Below, piece by piece: positions 42,772 to 43,599 of a stretch of 58,834 bases of DNA. Below the pieces are notes generated by a model. It ran no database searches. It was not told where the DNA came from and was given only the letters and a program-made list of their open reading frames with translations. The stretch covers positions 1 to 58,834 of the forward strand of contig CALAHF010000090.1 of assembly GCA_937891465.1 (NCBI GenBank), in the 5' to 3' direction. The translations under genes and the position numbers were made by a program. The DNA comes from an uncultured Verrucomicrobiales bacterium (GTDB taxonomy: Bacteria; Verrucomicrobiota; Verrucomicrobiia; Verrucomicrobiales; DEV007). Position 1 is the first letter of the stretch; every line of letters starts with the position of its first letter.

Positions 42772-43599
42772 GTGATCAATCCTGAAATCTGGAAACTGCA
42801 CAGCGAAGCCTGCGAAGGGGGCGAGACGTTTTATCTCGATCCCGATTCGGGCTTTCATGTCTTTACGGAAGTGGGGCTGAATGAACGCGTAAAATGTTGC
42901 GGAAGCGGCTGCCGTCATTGTCCGTTCGCGCATGAGAATGTTCCTGAATCGAAGCGAGCCAGGAACATAAACCAGGCCTCGTGGTTGACTCCGTCGGGCG
43001 ATTTTGCAAAGCCGGTCGACGCCCTGTTTTGGAGTGGCGGAAAGGACAGCTTTCTGACCCTGCTGGCGTTGCAGCGTGATGCCGCGAAGGATCATCAATT
43101 CGTTCTGGTGACGACATTTGATGCGGCGGAACGCCAAGTCGCGCATCAGGAACTCGGGATAGCGGACATCATTCGCCAGGCGCAGTATCTCAAATTACCG
43201 CTGCTTGGAATTCCGCTTCACCCGGGGCGGGACTACGCAGACGCCGTCGAGCCGGCGCTTCGTTTGATTCAAAATCCGGCGCGATTTGTGTTCGGCGATC
43301 TTCATTCAGAACACATCCGCAGTTGGCGGGAGGAAGCTTTTGCTGCGATCGCAAAAGAACTTGGTGCGACGTTGAAGTTCCCCTTGTGGCACGCCGACTA
43401 CGAATTTCTGATGCAGGATTTGGAAAAGTCCGGCGTGGTGTGTGAAGTCAGCGCCATCACATCCGCAGCAGAAGGACAGGTGAAACTCGGCGATATTTTC
43501 AATCGCGAGTTGTTCGAGTCGCTATCAGGTTCGATTGATCGCTTCGGCGAAAACGGAGAATTTCACACGTTGGCGAAAGTGTGGGATGTGAGCGGATAA
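42772..43599 (+). CDS. DUF5522 fused to a Dph6-like ATP-pyrophosphatase
   Basis: 275 residues from GTG 42772. Residues 1-55 form a DUF5522 zinc-binding-like domain (VKCCGSGCRHCPF, CCGSGCRHC at 42-50). From about residue 83 follows an ATP-pyrophosphatase domain with the PP-loop LFWSGGKDSFLTLL (SGGKDS at 88-93), then GIPLHPGRDYADAVE and a GVVCEVSAITSAAEG segment as in diphthine-ammonia-ligase-like enzymes. These amidate or thiolate a substrate with ATP. Substrate unknown; bacteria lack diphthamide, so the Dph6 likeness shows only fold and chemistry. Confidence 0.85.
   Translation: MINPEIWKLHSEACEGGETFYLDPDSGFHVFTEVGLNERVKCCGSGCRHCPFAHENVPESKRARNINQASWLTPSGDFAKPVDALFWSGGKDSFLTLLALQRDAAKDHQFVLVTTFDAAERQVAHQELGIADIIRQAQYLKLPLLGIPLHPGRDYADAVEPALRLIQNPARFVFGDLHSEHIRSWREEAFAAIAKELGATLKFPLWHADYEFLMQDLEKSGVVCEVSAITSAAEGQVKLGDIFNRELFESLSGSIDRFGENGEFHTLAKVWDVSG

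Follow-up and report, generated by a model that had tools for sequence, protein, structure and literature searches.

A fused DUF5522–DUF71-B12 protein clade linked to cobamide acquisition in bacteria

The gene analyzed here lies within a window (the whole stretch of DNA under study, 58.8 kb) and encodes a protein in which DUF5522 is joined to an ATP pyrophosphatase of the DUF71-B12 type. Within the DUF71-B12 subgroup, fused proteins of this kind make up a single clade, which is tied to the acquisition of cobamides (B12). Because relatives with the same fusion sit in B12-uptake gene clusters, a B12-processing role is proposed, and the fusion probably helps bacteria that are unable to make B12 to process the B12 that they scavenge. 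For the window protein itself we lean toward a function as a cytosolic cobamide-salvage enzyme with a role in cobamide acquisition.

Architecture and spread of the fusion

The features of the gene are collected in Table 1. The cysteine-rich cluster and the PP-loop motif lie in one chain exactly where the initial annotation had placed them, and the Pfam matches of the protein to PF17653 (DUF5522; 72.2 bits, cut-off 25) and PF01902 (Diphthami_syn_2; 50 bits, cut-off 23.2) are not due to chance. It had also been stated that each domain usually stands alone, which is true in the sampled Bacteroidota relatives, where DUF5522 frames are mostly of 50 to 150 codons and PF01902 frames mostly of about 200 to 290 codons.

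Table 1. Positions of the fusion gene and its domains and motifs in the window
Feature	Position	Strand	Remarks
DUF5522-DUF71 (B12-type) fusion gene	42772..43599	+	275 aa, GTG start; single open frame
DUF5522 domain, residues 10-56	42799..42939	+	PF17653, E 3.7e-20
CCGSGCRHC, residues 42-50, putative metal-ligand cluster	42895..42921	+	five ligands invariant in 28 copies
N-type ATP pyrophosphatase (PP-loop, DUF71/COG2102), residues 84-267	43021..43572	+	PF01902, E 3.6e-13, and AlphaFold model
PP-loop SGGKDS, residues 88-93	43033..43050	+	alignment, 50 rows
ENGEFH, residues 260-265, DUF71-B12 signature replacing Dph6 EGGE/DxE	43549..43566	+	invariant, 50 rows

As an architecture, the fusion of DUF5522 with PF01902 is widespread. 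Scanning genome contigs gave 57 loci, 50 of which (L006 to L055), from many phyla, match both domains and seven (L056 to L062) the ATPase part only. By their titles, the carriers include Verrucomicrobia, Nitrospinota, Gemmatimonadetes, Gammaproteobacteria, Erythrobacter, Novosphingopyxis, Deltaproteobacteria, and Myxococcota, among others. A local artefact is ruled out, as both motifs share a single frame in 49 of the 50 related loci; in L027:4239-5141 the domains occupy separate open reading frames (78 and 208 aa), which could be an assembly frame break or a lost fusion. In the window's family, DUF5522 is present in 3 of 74 genomes and is fused in all three, the other two, as judged from contig and position, being the assemblies behind L006 and L007. 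A wider sample of the phylum yielded a DUF5522 match in 5 of 387 genomes (four over the cut-off), and the three over-cut-off matches besides the window's own lie in short frames of 78 to 118 codons.

When placed into phylogenetic context (61 rows, with L027 excluded), the 51 fused rows form one clade with support of 97/97, bearing in mind that the DUF5522 columns are filled by fused rows only and may help hold the clade together. The window protein groups with L006 (98/95), and B12-linked members are found on several branches of the fused clade.

The AlphaFold model of the window protein (mean pLDDT 91.3, pTM 0.89) shares its fold and PP-loop with Dph6, the diphthine-ammonia ligase (TIGR03679). 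Its ATPase part aligns with PH1257 (2d13; Z 18.9, 180 residues, rmsd 3.0) and with ATP-bound PF0828 (3rk1; Z 17.5, 178 residues, rmsd 2.8), and the next-best fold family after the Dph6-type proteins is argininosuccinate synthase (Z 11.5); the PP-loop sulfur enzymes LarE and ThiI are also among the fold neighbors. Within the alignment, S88, G90, K91, D92, and S93 of the PP-loop are invariant, and the window protein is 42 to 68% identical to the fused rows. Dph6 differs in carrying EGGE/DxE where all 50 fused loci carry ENGEFH, and the host here is a bacterium. Because of this replacement the window protein is not a diphthamide enzyme; diphthamide synthesis is ruled out by the motif, as aligned to PF0828, together with a score of 32.9 bits against the archaeal Dph6 model TIGR03679, whose equivalog cut-off is 197.3. 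The NCBIfam matches of the window protein were sub-threshold only (TTX_0299 family, 46.3 against 250 bits). The glutamate predicted to be catalytic in Dph6 (Glu188) is a histidine in the fused proteins, a change taken by de Crecy-Lagard et al. (2012; PMC3541065) to indicate an altered reaction.

That paper splits DUF71 into Dph6 (EGGE/DxE) and DUF71-B12 (ENGEF/YH), reports 75 of 102 DUF71-B12 cases as neighbors of genes for B12 transport, and predicts that the DUF71-B12 proteins act in B12 salvage in place of CbiZ, with the reaction left open; its abstract names the risk that such proteins are mislabeled as diphthine-ammonia ligases through homology (PMC3541065). The expectation of the initial annotation that the enzyme catalyzes something other than diphthamide synthesis is thus borne out by the ENGEFH motif, but the idea is not new, B12 salvage having been predicted in 2012. 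With the DUF71-B12 subgroup of COG2102, as set out in that paper, the fused clade has in common the PP-loop SGGKDS, the ENGEFH motif, and the link to cobamide transport. It differs in its N-terminal DUF5522, in the short C-terminus of most members, in the gene content of its genomes (no CbiB and mostly no CobS), and in a BtuF-like partner that has no evident signal for export. At most 19 residues follow the ENGEFH motif in 46 of the 50 fused frames counted, whereas 33 to 58 residues follow it in 13 of 14 frames called stand-alone, a set that includes one gene twice (L074 and L099) and in which the exception is the broken L027. From these tail lengths, DUF5522 may stand in for the C-terminal extension of the stand-alone relatives.

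B12 genes beside the fusion and in the genome of the window

A gene for a BtuF-like protein (PF01497) lies directly upstream of the fusion in 15 of the 50 loci (L008-L012, L035, L036, L039, L042-L045, L047, L050, and L054) and was not found in the other 35. Fourteen of these calls were made by seed search and that of L050 by Pfam, and six overall are Pfam-confirmed. Seven of the 15 loci show a frame overlap of about 8 bases, with a gene for a DUF6580 membrane protein lying ahead (the Pfam check of DUF6580 covers two of the seven genes). The same seven (L036, L039, L042, L043, L044, L045, and L054) are those in which, among the 50 loci scanned, a cobalamin riboswitch (RF00174) is located just ahead of the operon. 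The fullest order is cobalamin riboswitch, DUF6580 membrane protein, BtuF-like protein, and fusion. As each genome searched has at most three cobalamin riboswitches, their placement at these operons is not chance. A second riboswitch in L042 precedes a TonB receptor gene, for which the best NCBIfam model is a vitamin B12 receptor, under the cut-off.

Several other arrangements were noted around the fused loci. The genomes that host L008, L010, and L012 (G462, G463, and G464) have two tandem cobalamin riboswitches about 0.4 to 0.5 kb apart, and in G466 and G467 a riboswitch lies about 11 kb downstream of the fusion, where high-GC open reading frames are indistinct from shadow frames. Conserved neighbors of other kinds are nadC, a multicopper oxidase gene, and a luciferase-like monooxygenase gene. 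In L019 and L020 a same-strand gene, nadC in the genome of L019 (via L180), ends about 12 bases before the fusion, and the multicopper oxidase gene directly precedes the fusion in L013, L026, L040, and related Gemmatimonadetes loci (assigned by Pfam for L040 and L013 and by clustering for the other loci).

A survey of 20 fusion genomes (G000 and G460-G478) identified B12-binding domain proteins in all 20, a PduO-type adenosyltransferase in 17, and a cobalamin riboswitch in 16, with the window's genome among the four without one. No cobalamin riboswitch was found in a scan of the whole window, and Pfam identified no B12 transport or cbiB gene among the five nearest neighbors of the fusion there. 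With no B12 gene beside it, the role of the window gene rests on orthology. Neither CobS nor a PduO-type adenosyltransferase was found in its genome, in which the sole B12-binding protein over the cut-off is the methionine synthase MetH, itself identified over the cut-off. The metH gene adjoins, on the same strand, a gene for a BtuB-like TonB receptor (L182:5401-11281, contig C104); for this receptor the top-scoring NCBIfam model is TonB-B12, at 9.7e-54 and under the cut-off. The genome looks like that of a bacterium that takes up complete cobamide in order to make methionine, and by orthology the window gene would have the same role as its B12-linked relatives, feeding MetH.

It could instead be speculated that the window gene is a single-gene acquisition with an unrelated housekeeping role, and that its relatives were separately recruited into B12 operons. 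The isolation of the gene in the window, the few DUF5522 carriers in its family, and the majority of fusion loci without a BtuF-like neighbor would be accommodated in this way. However, a catalytic motif identical to that of the fused rows, the level of identity to them, and the presence of B12-binding proteins in all 20 fusion genomes surveyed speak against it, and we regard this explanation as unlikely.

DUF5522 within and outside the fusion

The five residues C42, C43, C47, H49, and C50 are conserved in fused and stand-alone DUF5522 copies alike, as expected of a metal site. Elsewhere, DUF5522 (PF17653) stands alone or is joined to Cys_rich_CWC; such copies have the CCx3C[RK]HC cluster in common with the window protein, in which the domain is joined to an ATP pyrophosphatase instead. 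Human C1orf53 is also a putative DUF5522 protein. A model of DUF5522 only (pLDDT 76, pTM 0.58) had one weak PDB match (Z 2.7), and no sequence relative was found among solved structures (best E 0.45).

The two domains are also connected when encoded separately. Among 296 genomes from the phylum of the Bacteroidota relative, DUF5522 was matched in 84 (82 over the cut-off) and PF01902 in 83. Both occur in 39, DUF5522 only in 43, PF01902 only in 44, and neither in 170, with the two genomes with a sub-cut-off DUF5522 match not counted as carriers; the association (Fisher p 1e-5) is weak, being uncorrected for kinship. In five of the 296 genomes, separate DUF5522 and DUF71 genes lie less than about 1 kb apart, and each of the five pairs is either part of a B12 operon or adjacent to BtuF and a TonB receptor (Pfam names at these loci cover L098 and L100). 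Four of them (L097, L098, L099, and L101) have the order CWC-type-DUF5522 gene, CobU, and DUF71, in three of which BluB-CobT and CobS come next and the BtuF and BtuC genes are divergent. The fifth, L100, has a 65-residue DUF5522 gene after DUF71 and a TonB receptor gene bearing a riboswitch. Flavobacteria have both domains as separate genes in B12 operons. The CWC-type-DUF5522 gene was seen in this operon type in 14 loci, most without DUF71 there; Pfam recognized its CWC part in L098 but not in L102.

Large regions were analyzed around 80 of the 98 DUF5522 matches in these genomes (96 over the cut-off). Core B12 genes (BtuF, BtuC, CobU, CobT, or CobS) occur in 15 of the 80 and a DUF6580 gene in 2 more, and no core B12 gene was found within range in 65, so that DUF5522 by itself does not mean B12 and a purely B12-related domain is ruled out. 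Of the remaining regions, many have hemL, the gene for ribosomal protein L28, ftsY, trmB, or some other gene close by. Stand-alone DUF5522 lies near ribosomal protein L28 in L120, L129, L139, L149, and L159, in some also near ftsY, which may point to a broader function of DUF5522. In L111, L112, L113, and L114 it forms the N-terminus of a protein of 344 to 370 residues that also contains a hydrophobic segment and a further domain. The gene for this protein is flanked by a TonB receptor gene on one side and a propeller-like gene on the other (DUF5074/NHL in L111), and a search of these four loci for cobalamin riboswitches was negative. A gene for TrmB, the tRNA m7G46 methyltransferase, is present in eight of the 80 regions (L116, L123, L142, L143, L160, L164, L168, and L174; identity confirmed for the L164 copy), six of which contain a small gene that we take to be MGMT-like.

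The initial annotation had suggested that the zinc-like domain may present a substrate or a tRNA to the ATPase, with amidation or thiolation as the outcome. A tRNA substrate is not supported, trmB near stand-alone DUF5522 being the one tRNA link. In an ATP-dependent thiolation of the kind known from TtuA, NcsA, and LarE, the PP-loop domain would activate a tRNA or some other substrate, which would then receive sulfur from an Fe-S cluster or persulfide on DUF5522. The four invariant cysteines and one histidine of DUF5522, the appearance of LarE and ThiI as fold neighbors, and the trmB regions are in line with such a reaction. The PP-loop sulfur transferases TtuA, NcsA, and LarE nevertheless use a cysteine in or beside the PP-loop domain. 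This conserved residue is missing in the fused proteins: the window protein contains a single cysteine in its PP-loop domain, and no cysteine is among the invariant columns of residues 80 to 275. In addition, no recurring tRNA-modification partner was found among the neighbors of the fused loci, and the Dph6-type proteins are by far the best fold matches, which makes thiolation quite improbable.

An equally doubtful proposal would be that the protein handles the cobalt center: imported cobalamin would be reduced, decyanated, or escorted on its way to MetH or the adenosyltransferase, and DUF5522 would serve in redox chemistry or ligand binding. That fusion genomes are users of complete cobamides, that the BtuF-like partner has no evident signal peptide, and that DUF5522 lies beside CobU without DUF71 in Flavobacteria could all be reconciled with such a role, but this would not explain why the PP-loop ATPase is conserved and its active site intact.

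Proposed processing of complete cobamides

The gene content of the 20 surveyed genomes narrows what the reaction could be. CbiZ (PF01955) is found in none, CbiB over the cut-off in none (with one weaker match in G476), and CobS in four. Many of these genomes are metagenome assemblies that are possibly gapped; the absence of CbiB from all 20 is hard to put down to assembly gaps. Most carriers are thus users of cobamides that are unable to rebuild the nucleotide loop, and for at least 16 of the genomes the substrate of the step in question should be a complete cobamide. The niche proposed for DUF71-B12 in the 2012 paper is that of CbiZ, an adenosylcobinamide/pseudo-B12 amidohydrolase of a different family; it is very unlikely that the fused protein likewise takes part in turning pseudo-B12 into cobyric acid, from which CbiB would then do the rebuilding. 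Clustering with btuCDF and cbiB was the ground on which proteins with ENGEFH were placed in B12 salvage (PMC3541065), and the lack of CbiZ matches the reported anti-correlation, but CbiB, which is required next, is absent and CobS mostly so, such that the product could not be rebuilt, and hydrolysis needs no ATP. Replacement of CbiZ by the fused clade therefore does not fit.

From the absences of CbiB and CobS, we propose instead an ATP-dependent processing of imported complete cobamides. A corrinoid would enter via a BtuB-like receptor and be handed to the fusion protein. The PP-loop domain of this protein would then spend ATP (yielding AMP and PPi) to adenylate, and so activate, a group at the periphery of the complete cobamide, in the simplest case a side-chain carboxylate resulting from loss of an amide, and ammonia would restore the amide, as Dph6 does with diphthine. 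Cobalamin monocarboxylic acids occur in nature. DUF5522 would bind a metal (Zn or Fe-S) through its five conserved ligands and form part of the substrate site in place of the C-terminal extension of stand-alone relatives.

Of the reactions raised in the initial annotation, amidation is thus conceivable, with a corrinoid as the likely substrate, and the BtuF-like neighbors and riboswitches agree with B12 salvage. Amide-ligase chemistry is a tentative suggestion, made by analogy with Dph6, and would perhaps amount to re-amidation of side chains on imported complete cobamides. Put together as an ATP-dependent repair ligase that re-amidates damaged (carboxylated) scavenged cobamides for users that cannot build them, with DUF5522 as a metal-bearing corrinoid-docking domain, the proposal is more speculative and, as a whole, rather unlikely.

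Our literature search found no paper mentioning DUF5522 and nothing that gives the DUF71-B12 reaction since 2012. The enzyme belongs to a known kind. Within the literature searched, neither the fused variant nor its riboswitch-controlled operons nor its CbiB-free setting seems to have been described. Bacterial genes of this type are likely to be annotated as diphthine-ammonia ligase through homology. The fused clade connects DUF5522 with DUF71-B12 and narrows the question of the reaction, whose substrate, in genomes without CbiB and CbiZ and mostly without CobS, must be finished cobamides or something that these feed. The small riboswitch-controlled operons of Erythrobacter-like bacteria are tractable systems for its study. 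If the repair ligase proves true, it would constitute a branch of B12 metabolism separate from both de novo synthesis and lower-ligand remodeling.
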